Positions 1,378-8,936 of a stretch of DNA of 32,018 bases are shown piece after piece; position 1 is the first letter of the stretch, and each line of letters starts with the position of its first letter. The translations under genes and the position numbers were made by a program. The stretch is from Chloroflexota bacterium. GTDB taxonomy: Bacteria; Chloroflexota; Anaerolineae; Caldilineales; Caldilineaceae. The notes under the pieces were generated by a model that was given only the letters and a program-made list of their open reading frames with translations, ran no database searches and was not told the DNA's origin. The DNA lies in NCBI GenBank assembly GCA_024277175.1, contig JAJRVT010000392.1, positions 1 to 32,018 of the forward strand, written 5' to 3'.

Positions 1378-3570
1378 CTATTCAACCGGACACGCGTCCA
1401 CATGCAAATACTGCTGGCACTCCTCAGTCTTCAGCGAGCGGGTAACGCGGGCTTCCCCAAGGGCGATTAGGTCTTCCAAGTCTAAAACCCATTCGCGCAT
1501 CGTAAAATCAGAACCGGCGCTGATCAGGCTCTTGCCGTCCGGACTGAAGTCAAGCCCAAAAATAGCATCAGTATGACCTGTTAAAAGCAGCAAGAGCTCG
1601 CCAGTTGAGGCATCCCAATATTTTATTGTCGCATCTCCGCCCGTTGTCGCCAGATTACTCCAGTCAGCGTTAAACACCATGGAATTGATCCCACTATTGT
1701 GCGCCTTGAAATTCAGCAACTCTTCGTTATTGTCCAGGTCCCATATTTTTACAACGCCATCCGTGCTCGAGGTGGCTAGCTTCGTTCCATCCGGACTAAA
1801 AATAACAGTACTAATCCTTCCTTCATTCTCTAAAACTGAAAGCAGTTCGCTGCCGTCTCTATTCCAAAATTCGACAGTGTAATTCGCGCCAATCGCCAGC
1901 CGCTCTCCATCCGGACTGTAGTCAATCGCCCACACACCAGGGAAAGTATTTTCGTACTCAATCGTCGATACCGGAACGCCTGAACTCAAATCCCAAATAA
2001 TGACAATGGGGAGGTCGCTCCCGCTCGTAGCCAGATAGCTTCCATCCGGGCTAAAAGTGACATTGTTGACCCATCTTTCACGCCCGCTGAGGGTCATCAG
2101 CTCCTCGCCCGTCTGCGCATCCCAAATTTTGGCCGTCGTGTCATCGCTGCCGGTAGCGATAAGATCACCGTCAGGGCTGAATTCGATCCCACCAATCCAA
2201 TCACTGTGCCCTTCCAAAGTTTGCAGCAGTTCTCCCGATTCGGCCTCCCAGATCCAGATTGGGCCAAAATAACTTCCGGCAACAATGCGACTGCCATCGG
2301 GGCTAAATTTTACGCGCGAGGCGCCGTCGTGTTCAAATGTCAGCAGCTCATAGCTGGGGCCGATATCCCATATTCTGGCTGTACCATCATAACTTGAAGT
2401 GACTAATTGGCTCCCATCCGGCATAAACTCAAGGCGCCTAACCCGGTCGTCATGACCATTCAAGGTTAACAGCTCATCGCCGGAAGCCAGATCCCATAAT
2501 TTGGCCTTGCCATCGGCGCCGGCGGTGGCCAACTGTGTGCCATCCGGGCTAAAGGCGACCGCCCAGGCTTCTGATGTGCTAACAGGCTGGTTTAGTATTT
2601 CCTCTCCAGATACGCTGTCCCACACGGCCAATAGGCCATCATCATTCACCCCGGCCACCAGGGTTCCATCCGGGCTGAACGCAGTCCCAACAACCTCAGC
2701 CACTTGGTCAAAGTTACCAAAATCACCAGAGAAAGCCAGCAGTTCCCGCCCGCTGGCCGTATCCCAAATTTTGGCGCTCCCGTCAGTGCTGCCAGATATC
2801 AGGCGCGATCCATCGGGGCTGAATTTGATGTCGGAGATCCAATCCGAATGGGCGGCGATAGAGAGTATTTCACTACCTGATTCCAAATTCCAGAACTTTA
2901 TAGAGCCTTCCTCTCCGGCAGTAGCCAACAGGATCCCATCGGGGCTAAAGGTGACTGCTCCTACTTCCCCATCATGACCATTGATCTGGAGCAGTTCTTC
3001 TCCGGTATCAATATCCCAAATCCTCACCGTATTATCGCTTCTGACTGTAGCCACACGCTGTCCATCTGGGCTAACGGCAATACCGCCGGCGCCTTTATTA
3101 CGGCTGTCAAAAGTGAGTAGTTCTTCCCCAGTGACTGCATCCCAGACTCTCGCAACCCCCTTATCATCTGAGAATGGGGTATCCATTGTGATAATTCGCC
3201 GGCCATCTGGCGTGATGGCTAACCCGCCAAATTTCTCCGTACCCGCTCCTAAAACCAGGCGCGTCCGCGAGGCGGGGATGGCCCTGTGCAGCGCTTCTTC
3301 CGCCTCCTGGGTGTGCGTGACGGAAAGCGCCTCCAGGGCCAGCAGGACGCTCAACTCGGGGTCAATTTCAAGGGTGTTTAGGGCGGCCAAAGCCAGCTCG
3401 CGTGAGGTTGTCAGCCGGGTTTGTTCTTCGGCCGCCAACCGAGCTTCGTTCGCTTCGGCTTCTCGTGTCGCCGCCAACTGGGAATTTTGTTCCGCCACTT
3501 GAGCATTTTCACCCGATTGTTGGGCAAAAAATAAGGCGGCGATTGCCAATAATAGGGCGAGCACCACCAC
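1378..3570 (-). CDS. WD40 double-propeller part of a split SARP-kinase-STAND-WD40 protein
   Basis: This is the C-terminal part of the giant regulator that begins at 6726. It is in the same frame as the upstream part, separated only by TAG at 3622-3624 and 17 sense codons. It starts with a hydrophobic helix (VVVLALLLAIAALFFAQQ), a charged coiled stretch rich in Glu, Ala and Arg, and the ELSVLLALEAL motif usual between STAND and WD40 parts. Then come 14 repeats, each with a (S/T)PDG turn and a W(D/N/E) strand end, enough for two seven-bladed propellers that bind proteins or ligands. It ends in a Cys-containing tail and its own TAG stop. The GTG at 3570 has no Shine-Dalgarno, so independent translation is doubtful. 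GC content is visibly lower than in pheT or apbE. Confidence 0.85.
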   Translation of the reverse strand: MVVLALLLAIAALFFAQQSGENAQVAEQNSQLAATREAEANEARLAAEEQTRLTTSRELALAALNTLEIDPELSVLLALEALSVTHTQEAEEALHRAIPASRTRLVLGAGTEKFGGLAITPDGRRIITMDTPFSDDKGVARVWDAVTGEELLTFDSRNKGAGGIAVSPDGQRVATVRSDNTVRIWDIDTGEELLQINGHDGEVGAVTFSPDGILLATAGEEGSIKFWNLESGSEILSIAAHSDWISDIKFSPDGSRLISGSTDGSAKIWDTASGRELLAFSGDFGNFDQVAEVVGTAFSPDGTLVAGVNDDGLLAVWDSVSGEEILNQPVSTSEAWAVAFSPDGTQLATAGADGKAKLWDLASGDELLTLNGHDDRVRRLEFMPDGSQLVTSSYDGTARIWDIGPSYELLTFEHDGASRVKFSPDGSRIVAGSYFGPIWIWEAESGELLQTLEGHSDWIGGIEFSPDGDLIATGSDDTTAKIWDAQTGEELMTLSGRERWVNNVTFSPDGSYLATSGSDLPIVIIWDLSSGVPVSTIEYENTFPGVWAIDYSPDGERLAIGANYTVEFWNRDGSELLSVLENEGRISTVIFSPDGTKLATSSTDGVVKIWDLDNNEELLNFKAHNSGINSMVFNADWSNLATTGGDATIKYWDASTGELLLLLTGHTDAIFGLDFSPDGKSLISAGSDFTMREWVLDLEDLIALGEARVTRSLKTEECQQYLHVDACPVE

Positions 3571-3621
3571 GCCAGAAAGGATATAGGCGCGGCGGCGTAG
3601 GTTTTGTGTGGCCGCAACCTG

Positions 3622-3624
3622 CTA
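3622..3624 (-). other. In-frame amber codon splitting the giant regulator
   Basis: The complement of CTA is a TAG in the frame shared by 3622-6726 and 1378-3570. The residues on both sides (HQRAE, then QVAATQNLRRRAY) read as one uninterrupted linker, and the next base is C. One base change from CAG or GAG would restore the full protein. Confidence 0.85.
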
Positions 3625-6600
3625 CTCCGCACGCTGATGTTCGGTCTCAACCAGTTGTCTGGCCGTCTCCAACTCGCGTGCTTGGCGAGTCGCCTCTTCC
3701 GCTTGACGCGCTTCACGAGCAGCGATGCTGTCCACGAGATAGGCCTGCTCATCCGCGGTCAGGGCCACTGTTGTCGAAGTGGCCCAGCCTTCATATTGGC
3801 TCAACCGCGCCCCGCGCAAGAGGTAGCCCGGATTCTGGTCCGACGATTGCCATTCGGCCACGGCCGCAGCTAGCAACCGTTGCAAACGTACATCATCCCG
3901 GCTCTCTTCCAGCCAGGTGCGCAGTCGATTCCATTCGCGCAACAATGCCTCGTGAGCCACCTCCACGGTCGGCTGACGGGTCAGCGGATCGTGGTCAAAG
4001 GTCAGCAAACGCGCCGTCCCAAACTGATTGATGATGTCCTCAAAAGACGCTTCATCATTCAGATTCTGCTCATCGACTAGATCGAGCGCTGCCAGTTCGG
4101 AGAGGAGAACACGACGGCGCGTATCTTCGACGCCTTCACCCAACGTCACCAGGCGTAGGAAAAATTGGCGCGTGGCCGCTTGTTCGGACGGCGACAGGCT
4201 GGCATAGATTTCATCCGCCCGGCGCGGCAACGCACCTAACACTCCGCCGATGTCGTCGAACGCCTGGCGCTCAATTTGGCTGCCGGAACGGGCGTCGAAC
4301 AATTCCATCAATGCGTACTGCAACAGGGGCAAGGCCCCCGGCTGGTCATGCACTTCCGCCACAATGGCCGACAGCACAGTGTCTTCAAATTCGACGCCAA
4401 TCCGCCGCGCCGGTTCCTGGATGGCCCAGGTCAATTCATCCTGGTTCAACGGCAGCACCAGTTCTGTGTGTTGCTTGACCAACTCGGCGAGCGACTGAAC
4501 TTGCAGTGGCCGATCATAGAAATCGGCGCGCAAGGTGATGATCACGTGCAGTGGGCTGCGCGGTGCAGAGATCGCGGCTATCAGGCTAACAAGGAAGTAT
4601 GTTCTTCGTTCCGGATCTGTCTGACTCCACAGTTCCTCGAACTGATCGATGACCAACAGCAGTTGGGCATCTTCTTCATCGGGTAAGATTCGGCGGATGG
4701 TGCGCAACATGCCGCGTGGATCGCGTTGCATTGGCTCCACCAGGCTGGGCGGCGGATCGACTGCAACCGGCCATAGGGCCAGTTCCAGTTCCTCTAATGG
4801 ATGCGCACCCGGTGTCATCTCGGCCATAAACCACTGTTCTGAACCCGGAATGGCGCCCTGGCGCAAAGCGGGAATCACACCTGCTTTCACCACGCTGGAT
4901 TTGCCGCTGCCGCTGGGACCGACAACGGCCAGAAAACGGCTTTCACTCAAATGCTCCAGTAATTGGCCGATAAGGTTGTCTCGGCCGTAGAAGTCCAGGG
5001 CGTCCGATTCCTGGAATGCACGCAGGCCCTTGTACGGATTGGTGACATCGACGGGAACGGGCGGTTGCGCAATGATGGTGGCCAGATCCAGGCGACCGGT
5101 AACGGATTGACGGAACGCTTCGGCAAAGGCCAAGACATCTGGAAAGCGGTCAGCAGGCTCTTTGGCCGTCGCCTGCTGAATCACGGCGTCGATCTGGGGC
5201 GAGAGATCGGGCCGACTGTCGCACACAAGGGGCAGTGGTGTGGACAGGTGATTTTGGATGACGGTGATCAGCGGCACATCCGGGAAGGGTTTTTCGCCCG
5301 TCAAGACCTCGTAGAGCACCGCCCCCAGACTGTAGATGTCCGACCGGGGGCTGACCAGGGCTTCCTGGATCTGTTCCGGAGAGATGTAATCCGGCGTGCT
5401 CAACAGTTCACCGTCAATGATGCCCAGATTGTCGTTTTGCAGGTCTTTGGCAATGCCGAAATCGGAGAGGTAGGCGTTGCCATCTTCGTCGAAGAGGATG
5501 TTTGCCGGTTTGATGTCGCGGTGGACGATGTCTTGACTGTGGGCAGCCGCCAGGGCCGACGCGATCTGGTCCAGCAATTTTTGTGTTCGTTCCAGGGACC
5601 ACGGCCCTTGCGCCAACGCCGTCAGCAGGTTGCCGCCGCGCAGCAGGCGCATGACCAGATAGGCGCCGTCCGGGTCGCGCCAGAAGTCGTAGATGGGCAC
5701 GATGTGAGGATGTTCCAGCCGGGCAATTGTCTGCGCCTCGGCTTCGAAGCGGCGAATGAAGTCAGGGTCATTGGCATAGCGGCGACGGATAATCTTGACT
5801 GCCACTTCACGGCCAATGACCGGCTGCATGGATCGATGAATGACACCGTACGCGCCCGACCCGATCTCTTCCTGTAGCTCGTAGCCGCGCACACCCTGCT
5901 CGCGCAACGAATCGAGTCGCAGGTCTCCGGTCAGTATCTGTTCATAAAGTTCCGTGGTGCGGGCGGAGGGTTCCATCCCCAGTTCGTCGTTGAACAGGCG
6001 ACGACACCGTTCATAGACAGACATCGCTTCATTGCGTTGTCCGTTGCGCGCCAGGATCTCCATCAACTGCTGATAGGCGCTTTCGCGGAAATCGTCAAGT
6101 GCCAGTTGGCGTTCGGCGTGGGCTTGAGCGGCCGCATAGGCTTGTTGGCGAATGGCGATGGCCGTCAGGATTTCCAGGGCGTCGAGTGTTCTTCGTAGAT
6201 ATTTCTGCCGCTCGATCTCCGCCCACTCTTCAAACTCGTTGCTGTCCTCTAAATAGAAATCGGCCAAAAAATGTCCTGTGTAGAGGTCTGTGACCGCTTC
6301 GAGATTCTCCTGGCATTGATTGCAGGTTAACAAGCTGTGATGATCGTGGGCTTGAACTTGTTCCAATAGAGCGCTGAACTGGCTGGTGTCGATCACAATT
6401 TGGGCATCCGGATTGATCCGGATGGTGTGGCGGTTGGCCAAGAGCAACGGCACGGCTTCATCCGCGCCGCTTGTATCACCTCTTTCAAAATCCGGGATCG
6501 CTTTGCGCAGATGGAACAACACCTGACGCAGATTGGTGCGGGCCGATGTGTCCGGCATGCCAGGCCAGAGCAACGTCATCAGCGTCTCTCGGCGATGGGC

Positions 6601-6726
6601 GGTTTCCGGTTCAGCCGCCAGATAGACAAGCAATGCCACCACTTTCCGTGTCCGAAAGTCAGAAATTGGTTCGTCGTCCAACACAATCTGCAGCGGGTCA
6701 AAGAGAGAAATCTGCAGTTGTCCCAT
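3622..6726 (-). CDS. SARP-type regulator fused to Ser/Thr kinase and STAND NTPase
   Basis: A 1,034-aa N-terminal part of a signalling protein. Order: winged-helix OmpR/SARP DNA-binding domain (about 5-80), BTAD helical repeats (about 145-265), a eukaryotic-like Ser/Thr kinase (about 282-545) with Gly loop GSGAYG, VAVK lysine 311, HRDIKPAN (Asp404) and DFG at 422, and a STAND-type NTPase from about 565 with YKGLRAF, Walker A GPSGSGKSS (Lys609) and Walker B LLLVIDQFEE. Kinase and ATPase residues look intact. SARPs bind direct repeats near -10 elements; the kinase would add phospho-control and the STAND part energy-dependent oligomerisation. ATG 6726 is preferred over GTG 6744 because AAGGGTGTGG precedes it and the SARP fold starts there. 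It ends at the amber codon just before the membrane helix. Kinase insertion between the SARP and STAND parts is uncommon. Confidence 0.9.
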   Translation of the reverse strand: MGQLQISLFDPLQIVLDDEPISDFRTRKVVALLVYLAAEPETAHRRETLMTLLWPGMPDTSARTNLRQVLFHLRKAIPDFERGDTSGADEAVPLLLANRHTIRINPDAQIVIDTSQFSALLEQVQAHDHHSLLTCNQCQENLEAVTDLYTGHFLADFYLEDSNEFEEWAEIERQKYLRRTLDALEILTAIAIRQQAYAAAQAHAERQLALDDFRESAYQQLMEILARNGQRNEAMSVYERCRRLFNDELGMEPSARTTELYEQILTGDLRLDSLREQGVRGYELQEEIGSGAYGVIHRSMQPVIGREVAVKIIRRRYANDPDFIRRFEAEAQTIARLEHPHIVPIYDFWRDPDGAYLVMRLLRGGNLLTALAQGPWSLERTQKLLDQIASALAAAHSQDIVHRDIKPANILFDEDGNAYLSDFGIAKDLQNDNLGIIDGELLSTPDYISPEQIQEALVSPRSDIYSLGAVLYEVLTGEKPFPDVPLITVIQNHLSTPLPLVCDSRPDLSPQIDAVIQQATAKEPADRFPDVLAFAEAFRQSVTGRLDLATIIAQPPVPVDVTNPYKGLRAFQESDALDFYGRDNLIGQLLEHLSESRFLAVVGPSGSGKSSVVKAGVIPALRQGAIPGSEQWFMAEMTPGAHPLEELELALWPVAVDPPPSLVEPMQRDPRGMLRTIRRILPDEEDAQLLLVIDQFEELWSQTDPERRTYFLVSLIAAISAPRSPLHVIITLRADFYDRPLQVQSLAELVKQHTELVLPLNQDELTWAIQEPARRIGVEFEDTVLSAIVAEVHDQPGALPLLQYALMELFDARSGSQIERQAFDDIGGVLGALPRRADEIYASLSPSEQAATRQFFLRLVTLGEGVEDTRRRVLLSELAALDLVDEQNLNDEASFEDIINQFGTARLLTFDHDPLTRQPTVEVAHEALLREWNRLRTWLEESRDDVRLQRLLAAAVAEWQSSDQNPGYLLRGARLSQYEGWATSTTVALTADEQAYLVDSIAAREARQAEEATRQARELETARQLVETEHQRAE

Positions 6727-6840
6727 AGAATCCACACCCTTCACTCAAATTCAATACGGCAATCTCTGTCCAAATCTTCCGCGGTTCTCAGCCCAAATCA
6801 GGCATAAAAACGATGGGACCTCGCCATGTTAACACAGAAT

Positions 6841-6866
6841 CGTTAGCAGTGGGACAAATGCTAACG
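6841..6866. promoter_or_regulatory. Perfect 8-bp inverted repeat upstream of the SARP gene
   Basis: CGTTAGCA (6841-6848) and TGCTAACG (6859-6866) are exact reverse complements with a 10-bp spacer, centre to centre 18 bp, as for a dimeric regulator. A palindromic GTTAAC lies just upstream at 6828. It sits 115 bp upstream of the SARP start, in the gap between the divergent genes. It could act on either one; a role as operator is inference. Confidence 0.4.
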
Positions 6867-6925
6867 GTTTGGGCCGATTTGTTAACGGTTATGAAACGGC
6901 CCGCAAACGGCGGCTGGGCAATACT
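6862..6925 (+). promoter_or_regulatory. Candidate SARP-dependent promoter (AACGG direct repeats plus -10)
   Basis: AACGG occurs at 6863, 6884, 6895 and 6906, spaced 21, 11 and 11 bp, all in the same orientation; the first two extend to TAACGGTT. Nine bases after the last repeat is AATACT (6920-6925), a plausible -10 box, with no good -35. SARP family members are known to bind heptamer direct repeats at 11- or 22-bp period, with the last repeat about 8 bp from -10. It points at the small gene at 7052. The remaining bases from 6727 to 7051 hold no gene that I can support. Confidence 0.45.
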
Positions 6926-7051
6926 GATGGCGTCCGGTTTCATTTCCCAACCAGACTTGGGACCGGAAAAAGAAAATCTCATCAACGTGAGCCAAACGGC
7001 TCCAGATAGGAAATAGTCTATCACTCTGTTTTGATTCCTAAGGAGGAAGCT

Positions 7052-7264
7052 ATGTTTACCGGACGAGATGAACTTGTGCGCCACGAGCAGAATAAAGATG
7101 CAATCCGACGGGCTGAAGCTCACCGATTGGCCAAGCAGGTATCCCAACCCGGCAGGAATTTTGCTTTCATAACCGACAAATTCGTTTGGCTATACAGTAG
7201 GCTTTTCCGTTTCAAATCCACCTCTGACATAGAGAATCAATCGCTAGGATCCGAACATGGTTAA
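7052..7264 (+). CDS. Small protein of unknown function (70 aa)
   Basis: This short gene has the best Shine-Dalgarno in the window: AAGGAGG ending about 6 nt before ATG 7052. The product starts [16 protein letters not shown], is rich in charged residues in its first half (Arg, Lys, Glu, His), has a short aromatic/hydrophobic patch ([16 protein letters not shown]) and ends in a polar tail. No known domain is recognised. It lies divergent from the SARP regulator, behind the candidate SARP promoter, and so could be its direct target. Its last bases run to within 6 bp of the gmd remnant, so the natural C terminus may have been changed by the rearrangement that brought that remnant in. The strong ribosome-binding site argues that it is real; function unknown. 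Confidence 0.6.
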
Positions 7265-7269
7265 ACTAA

Positions 7270-7506
7270 CACTGGACCTGGACTGGCATGATTACGTGGC
7301 CCAGGATCCCCGCTTCTATCGCCCGGCCGAGGTCGACCTGCTGGTGGGCGACCCCCACCAAGGCCCGGGAGCAACTGGGCTGGGAGCCGACCGTGGATTT
7401 CAAAGAACTGGTGCGCCTGATGGTGGACGCGGACATGGAAGCCCTGCAGGCCACCATCGCCAACCTGGACTATGCGCCACGTCATTTAGAAGCGATTCAT
7501 CGATGA
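7270..7506 (+). pseudogene. Decayed copy of the gmd 3' end
   Basis: About 236 bp match positions 106-339 at roughly 94% by eye, ending with the same HLEAIHR and TGA. One extra C in the run at about 7351-7355 shifts the frame, so the copy cannot encode the domain. Most other differences fall in third codon positions, which suggests the copy was under coding selection before the frameshift. It has no start codon of its own and no 5' part of gmd. Confidence 0.9.
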
Positions 7507-7556
7507 CAAGATGACAGGGTGACTCGTGACACGCCGTCATCTTGTCACCCTGTCAC
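7504..7556. repeat. Octamer repeats forming a hairpin between convergent ends
   Basis: Octamers related to TGACAAGA run in one direction and then invert: TGACAAGATGAC (from about 7505) pairs with GTCATCTTGTCA (from 7536) across a 20-base loop. It lies between the gmd remnant (+) and the 3' end of the minus-strand gene ending at 7560, so it may act as a two-way stop signal, though there is no T run. Confidence 0.6.
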
Positions 7557-7559
7557 TCC

Positions 7560-8936
7560 TCATCTTCGTTTGTCATTTATCATTCTGATAGTGGCCAGGA
7601 TCGATTCGGCCAACTTTTGACAGTCGCTATGCTGCCCCTGGTGGTAGTCTTCCGGCAGATGGAGCCCAACGATATATGTATGCCCATCAATTTCTGTATC
7701 GTATATCAAATAGTCTGGGGGAAAGAATCTGAGCATCCACGGCTGTCCCGCCAGTCGAAGAGGCCCAATATTCCAATACTCCCGTGCGCCTTCGGGGAAG
7801 ACCAAATAGCAGGATAGGTCTTTGCGCTGGATGAGCAATGCGTGTTCACGGAATTCATTATCACCGACTATCTGCCAAATCGCCTCATCATAGGTGAACT
7901 CAAAGAGAGGAGAGTCTGGATAGAGACTCTTGCCACGATGAGTGACGAAGCTTGGCGTGGCCGTTGGGCGGGATACGGTCGGTTGCGGCAGGGGGAGGGG
8001 TCGCTGGATCATCCCTTGTACCGAAGTCGATTGCTCGATTTCGTTCTGCTCATGCGCCTTCGACTGTTCGCAGCGCCTGCGTTCTTCCTTCTCGATCCCC
8101 CGATCTAATATGGGGATAGGATCAGGCTGAATTTCCTTCGCGGCTTTGGCGTCCCGGCAGACTATATCACATTCTTCCACCAAGTTATGTGGCGCGCGAA
8201 AATTGTCAAGCGTTTCCCGGAGCGAGGGCCATTCTTGTTCCGCCTTATACAATTCATTTAGGGTTCTGGGGGCGTCTGGCGCAAACTCTATTGACGATGC
8301 CAATGCATCCAGGATTACTTGCATGTCATCGCTATAGGCGAATGAATTGATGACGTAAACCAGCCGGCCATGGGTGAACCAGACAGCCTGTGTGGTTGGG
8401 CCATACCCCTCCACTTCTGTAACAGCATGTAACACCTGCTCCATGTTCTCTTTGTTGCGAAGTTCCCGGCTGGTAATATCACGTATCCAGGTCTGAGACG
8501 TCCCCTCATAAGGATGGATGAGAGAACTCAACGCTTGCATCTCCGCTACCCAGGAAAATAAATCTTGCCCTTCTGGGATTTCATAACTCTGCACCGTGAT
8601 TTCGATCCTATTCCCTTCAAGGACGTGCCCTTTGGGGGGAGATAGGGCAAGGACACCTCCATACCCTTGAGATGGCCCTTCTTTCGGAGGTTGATACTCT
8701 TTAGGCAAATCAGCGGGAACTACAATCGGGTTAAGGGTTGGTATGTTCAACTGCCAATTAGGTGGATACGCAAAGGAGATGTGAAGATCAGGTGAACTGT
8801 ATGTAGGCCAGCCCGCCGTTACTGGCGCAGTTCCATCTTGAGCCAGAGTTGGGTTCGGTGTTGTGAACATCAACAACGTTAGCAGGCCCATTATTACACT
8901 GCTTGCAAATGTTCTCTTGTTTGAATAGGGCGTCAT
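7560..8936 (-). CDS. Exported protein of unknown function
   Basis: A 458-aa secreted or surface protein. ATG 8936 is chosen because AGGAGGG lies 8 nt before it; the frame extends a little upstream without a better site. The N terminus is a Sec signal peptide (basic NKR, then SSVIMGLLTLLMF, probable cleavage after TLA near 35). Next is a module opening with YSSPDLHISFAYPPNW (about 44-60), the kind of small beta domain often seen in Chloroflexota exported proteins. A charged region (KEERRRCEQSKAHEQNE, about 285-305) and a Pro/Thr linker follow. A second module (FEFTYDEAIWQIV and later residues) has the same opening logic, suggesting an internal duplication. Four or more Cys could form disulfides. 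GC is low for the window. It interrupts the decayed gmd-hydrolase block, so it probably arrived by insertion. No enzyme motif seen. Confidence 0.7.
   Translation of the reverse strand: MTPYSNKRTFASSVIMGLLTLLMFTTPNPTLAQDGTAPVTAGWPTYSSPDLHISFAYPPNWQLNIPTLNPIVVPADLPKEYQPPKEGPSQGYGGVLALSPPKGHVLEGNRIEITVQSYEIPEGQDLFSWVAEMQALSSLIHPYEGTSQTWIRDITSRELRNKENMEQVLHAVTEVEGYGPTTQAVWFTHGRLVYVINSFAYSDDMQVILDALASSIEFAPDAPRTLNELYKAEQEWPSLRETLDNFRAPHNLVEECDIVCRDAKAAKEIQPDPIPILDRGIEKEERRRCEQSKAHEQNEIEQSTSVQGMIQRPLPLPQPTVSRPTATPSFVTHRGKSLYPDSPLFEFTYDEAIWQIVGDNEFREHALLIQRKDLSCYLVFPEGAREYWNIGPLRLAGQPWMLRFFPPDYLIYDTEIDGHTYIVGLHLPEDYHQGQHSDCQKLAESILATIRMINDKRR

Follow-up and report, generated by a model that had tools for sequence, protein, structure and literature searches.

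AfsR of Streptomyces, a large SARP of the STAND family, has its SARP at the N-terminus, a STAND-type NTPase next and repeats that serve as sensor at the C-terminus (PMC10936776). Its C-terminal part restrains the SARP, and once the TPR repeats are removed the protein still shows DNA binding and activation in vitro, though the isolated SARP activates more strongly (PMC10936776). A comparable layout is found in nSTAND1 STAND conflict systems, which carry an N-terminal effector, a central nSTAND1 domain and a swappable C-terminal sensor (PMC10907252). In-frame nonsense codons in otherwise intact bacterial coding sequences have also been reported by Belinky et al. 2021 (PMC7918605). The gene described here shares the general layout of AfsR, but AfsR is built with NOD and TPR units and has no built-in kinase, membrane helix or WD40 repeats, its kinases (AfsK and others) being separate proteins (PMC10936776). 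It differs from the nSTAND1 conflict systems in that its effector is a transcription activator plus a kinase (PMC10907252), and from the cases of Belinky et al. in that their stops are shared between species, whereas the TAG at 3622-3624 is unshared with the relatives examined (PMC7918605). We found no description of the combination SARP-kinase-nSTAND1-membrane helix-WD40 in the literature searched.

The gene lies in a window of 32,018 nucleotides (the whole stretch of DNA analyzed) on contig C343 of a draft MAG (5.2 Mb, 440 contigs, 89.5% complete), taken to represent an uncultured member of Chloroflexota. An earlier note on this DNA, silent on strand, had described two parts sharing one frame with only a TAG between them. 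We confirmed a single frame, on the minus strand, running from 6744 to a TAG at 1378-1380, with the TAG at 3622-3624 as its sole interruption. Its features are as follows.

3625..6744, minus strand: ORF preceding the stop, 1040 codons, ending in the TAG at 3622-3624
5932..6720, minus strand: SARP module, OmpR-type winged helix plus BTAD (PF03704, 4e-22; PF00486 weak, 2.7e-4, below that profile's cut-off)
5146..5883, minus strand: Hanks-type Ser/Thr kinase domain with HRDIKPAN and DFG motifs (PF00069, 8e-50)
3829..5037, minus strand: nSTAND1 NTPase domain, residues 570-972 (PF20703, 2.4e-117)
3625..3828, minus strand: Glu/Gln-rich linker from the STAND domain to the membrane helix (sequence and alignment), probably a coiled coil
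3622..3624, minus strand: in-frame TAG, in a column that is Glu in 13/14 aligned relatives and Ile in 1/14
3517..3582, minus strand: single membrane helix ILSGVVVLALLLAIAALFFA, RRR just before it (hydropathy 2.95)
3568..3570, minus strand: GTG, first in-frame start-type codon past the stop, 17 codons downstream
1381..3174, minus strand: WD40 repeats, ∼14 counted by eye, two propellers (PF00400, 1e-104)
1378..1380, minus strand: terminal TAG, where orthologues also end (EECQxYLHxDxCP)

Translation may start at GTG 6744 or, more likely, at ATG 6726, near which SARP homology begins. The N-terminal OmpR-type winged helix and BTAD (residues 119-271 by Pfam) are those of a large SARP. They are followed by the kinase domain (residues 288-533 by Pfam), whose top PDB matches are PknA and PknB chains, and by an nSTAND1 domain with legible Walker A (GPSGSGKSS) and Walker B (LLLVIDQFE) motifs. 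Residues 1055-1073, 14 residues past the stop, form the only strong hydrophobic helix in the entire frame; a coil separates this helix from the WD40 repeats, and the C-terminal residues EECQQYLHVDACP agree with orthologue ends. All these modules occur in one open frame in relatives; here, the TAG at 3622-3624 interrupts it. Past this TAG the same frame stays open for 747 codons, far beyond chance, whereas the other frames there contain 11-54 stops. The earlier note held that the stop falls exactly between the soluble part and the membrane helix with its propellers. The domains and the helix are indeed placed in this way, but the position is less striking than it seems, since ∼6% of the nonsense changes open to this gene would fall in the linker of residues 973-1057.

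We compared the position of the stop in relatives, the closer of which came from a class-wide search of 396 genomes. Among 14 aligned relatives the column holds GAA or GAG (Glu) in 13 and ATT (Ile) in one, with no stop, and in 18 relatives from two sources aligned across the junction the frame is open through this column, which is occupied by a sense residue or a gap. In two of the relatives (G677 and G641) the contig runs out within the membrane helix or past it, and two others (G684 and G722:C3) begin at a contig end; apart from these and G509:C11, all are full-length single ORFs. A tree of the first halves nested the broken gene within an unbroken clade. Together with the Glu column, this nesting indicates that the ancestral state is Glu and that the TAG is lineage-specific, one substitution away from GAG. 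First-half identity to the relatives found did not exceed ∼66%, which precludes fine dating of the stop. Two apparent truncations among relatives were rejected: the end of G677 at 1091 aa is a contig end, and an internal TGA in G691:C148 precedes the start of what is a clean 1860-codon ORF.

In G509:C11, the WD40 half is spread over two further frames past the membrane helix (gene-strand 5313-7705), which we interpret as independent frameshift decay of the sensor half. According to the earlier note, simple gene loss would be recognized by relatives with a sense codon and decayed WD40 halves. The sense codon was found, but decayed WD40 halves are the exception, with a frameshifted one in one relative, G509:C11.

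The part of the gene past the stop shows no trace of long decay. Random substitutions would create a stop in these 747 codons in ∼3.3% of cases, and we infer that neutral sequence would gain a further stop after ∼1-1.5% divergence. No additional stop, frameshift or downstream acceleration, as would be expected of an old pseudogene, was found: Tajima relative-rate tests did not consistently assign more change to the WD40 half of this gene, and the terminal branch of the broken gene measured 0.65, compared to 0.74-0.84 in nearby rows. Since the WD40 half is intact and unaccelerated, the stop appears to be recent or not real, or else the WD40 half is still used; continued use, through read-through or restart, would explain the intact half equally well.

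To place this stop among others in the genome, we scanned 1.39 Mb of the MAG (∼a quarter of it) by six-frame comparison for stops that are flanked on either side by coding signal and have no start nearby, keeping those within a domain match. This gene was counted although its stop lies between domains, within the orthologous ORF. Most matches of the scan were ordinary gene junctions, where an ATG follows within a few codons (e.g., HlyD/ABC at C85), and a stretch of radical SAM/Fic sequence on C35 that contains two TGA was left out of the count as possibly separate genes. Besides the gene studied here, four interrupted genes were retained.

C404:38556-38558, minus strand: TAG in a GH5-like gene; Glu in 23/23 motif-bearing relatives (WLRQ-E-FPWEDIE)
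C380:12643-12645, minus strand: TAA within the BTAD domain of a SARP-AAA-TPR gene; Glu in relatives, a column resting on just four motif matches that carry a sense codon
C9:9075-9077: TAA within a domain of a membrane glycosyltransferase-like protein; relatives vary at the column
C434:23739-23741: TAG within a domain of a LuxR-type response regulator

The five genes thus comprise three TAG and two TAA, and codon usage predicts a TAG share of 57-59%; there is therefore no amber excess among interrupted genes. Relatives fixed the ancestral residue in 3/5 cases, and in 3/3 of these (this gene, the GH5-like gene and the C380 gene) it was Glu, G-to-T on the coding strand accounting for all three.

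Taken together, these results make it very probable that the TAG is a Glu codon altered at one base, an ordinary nonsense change that is either a recent real allele or a consensus error. The earlier note had listed a fresh mutation or a base-calling error as the alternatives to a switch, and in this it was right. That the stop is a real recent mutation, a truncated allele present in the population and heading to loss, has a probability close to one half. Only one substitution is needed, the rest of the gene is intact and it belongs to an expanded family, in which the WD40 half of G509:C11 was frameshifted independently. What speaks against a real mutation is the Glu-only pattern of ancestral residues, and this same pattern favors an error, i.e., an open gene in the organism and a G-to-T mistake in the MAG, to which we give somewhat less than an even chance. 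Glu stood at three of the five broken sites, compared to the 12-22% share of nonsense changes predicted from codon usage, and the stop in the GH5-like gene, which is conserved throughout relatives and intact in those searched, is hard to ascribe to natural loss. However, the error rate cannot be gross, since 127 ABC-ATPase matches in the MAG contain no internal stop, and the ancestral codon was established in just three of five cases, the 3/3 Glu count being small and spotted after the fact. The Glu pattern leans towards G-to-T errors or towards a G-to-T mutational process.

In the earlier note, termination would give a soluble regulator and read-through a membrane-tethered sensor. We consider it very improbable that the TAG is read through, whether by program or by tolerance, into a minor full-length tethered form. 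The intact, unaccelerated WD40 half would fit such read-through, as would a possible 12-bp GC-rich stem-loop ∼25 nt past the stop (3562-3598, minus strand, over the start of the membrane helix), but its folding was not significant compared to shuffled sequences (z-score -1.6). Programmed read-through would call for a conserved stop with coding selection downstream, and no relative has the stop. The search for an amber suppressor tRNA suggested in the earlier note found no CUA anticodon among 32 tRNA genes, in a MAG ∼89% complete, where absence is not proof. PylS was sought in the MAG and is absent, and RF1 is present. TAG serves as a normal stop: it ends 4/17 other listed genes of the window in addition to this gene itself, and 293/1056 (28%) of coding-like ORFs in the 1.39 Mb. 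None of the marks of amber recoding (a CUA tRNA, RF1 loss, TAG depletion) was thus observed. These data, together with the lack of amber bias among interrupted genes, leave the proposed soluble/tethered switch unsupported.

Ribosomes are able to restart after a nearby stop, and the GTG at 3570 lies 17 codons past this one, at the distance given in the earlier note. Gene fission, with the WD40 half translated separately from this GTG, is nevertheless a very slim prospect. As the earlier note had stated, no restart site is apparent: we found neither a close Shine-Dalgarno-like sequence nor a promoter-like site upstream of GTG 3570, which makes restart there unlikely, and no split relative was found. 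It is hardly credible that UAG and UAA standing at certain Glu positions are tolerated in this lineage because Glu is weakly inserted there, with several interrupted genes thereby yielding part of their product at full length; if true, this would give a tethered sensor form here beside the soluble one.

For intact members of the family, AfsR (PMC10936776) and other STAND proteins (PMC10907252) suggest by analogy the following mode of action. The WD40 propellers would be the sensor of a ligand or partner, and the positive-inside rule (RRR before the helix) probably places them outside the cytoplasm. Under the control of this sensor the STAND NTPase would change state and free the SARP and/or the kinase; both would work in the cytoplasm, where promoters would be the targets of the SARP. 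If the TAG is real, translation would halt at 3624 and leave a soluble SARP-kinase-STAND protein deprived of its membrane anchor and its sensor; this remnant would most likely be mis-regulated or without function. Such a form could keep some SARP activity, uncoupled from the signal, because AfsR without its TPR still binds DNA and activates.

Pfam matches confirmed the SARP-kinase-nSTAND1 order in relatives from Chloroflexota, as well as in two MAGs of Actinomycetes. In a paralogue on C284 of this MAG and in a kinase-nSTAND1 protein of a relative (G010:C38), an FGE-sulfatase-like domain replaces WD40 after the STAND domain; from such sequences, the sensor of nSTAND1 proteins appears exchangeable. 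In addition, trees of the first halves and of the WD40 halves conflict, e.g., for Ww555 and G722:C3, suggesting that sensor halves have been swapped among family members.

The stop itself is of little import: a single base of a draft genome can mimic a regulatory switch. The architecture is more interesting, in that transcription activator, kinase, STAND NTPase and membrane helix share a single chain with sensors that can be exchanged, and it occurs in MAGs of both Chloroflexota and Actinomycetota.
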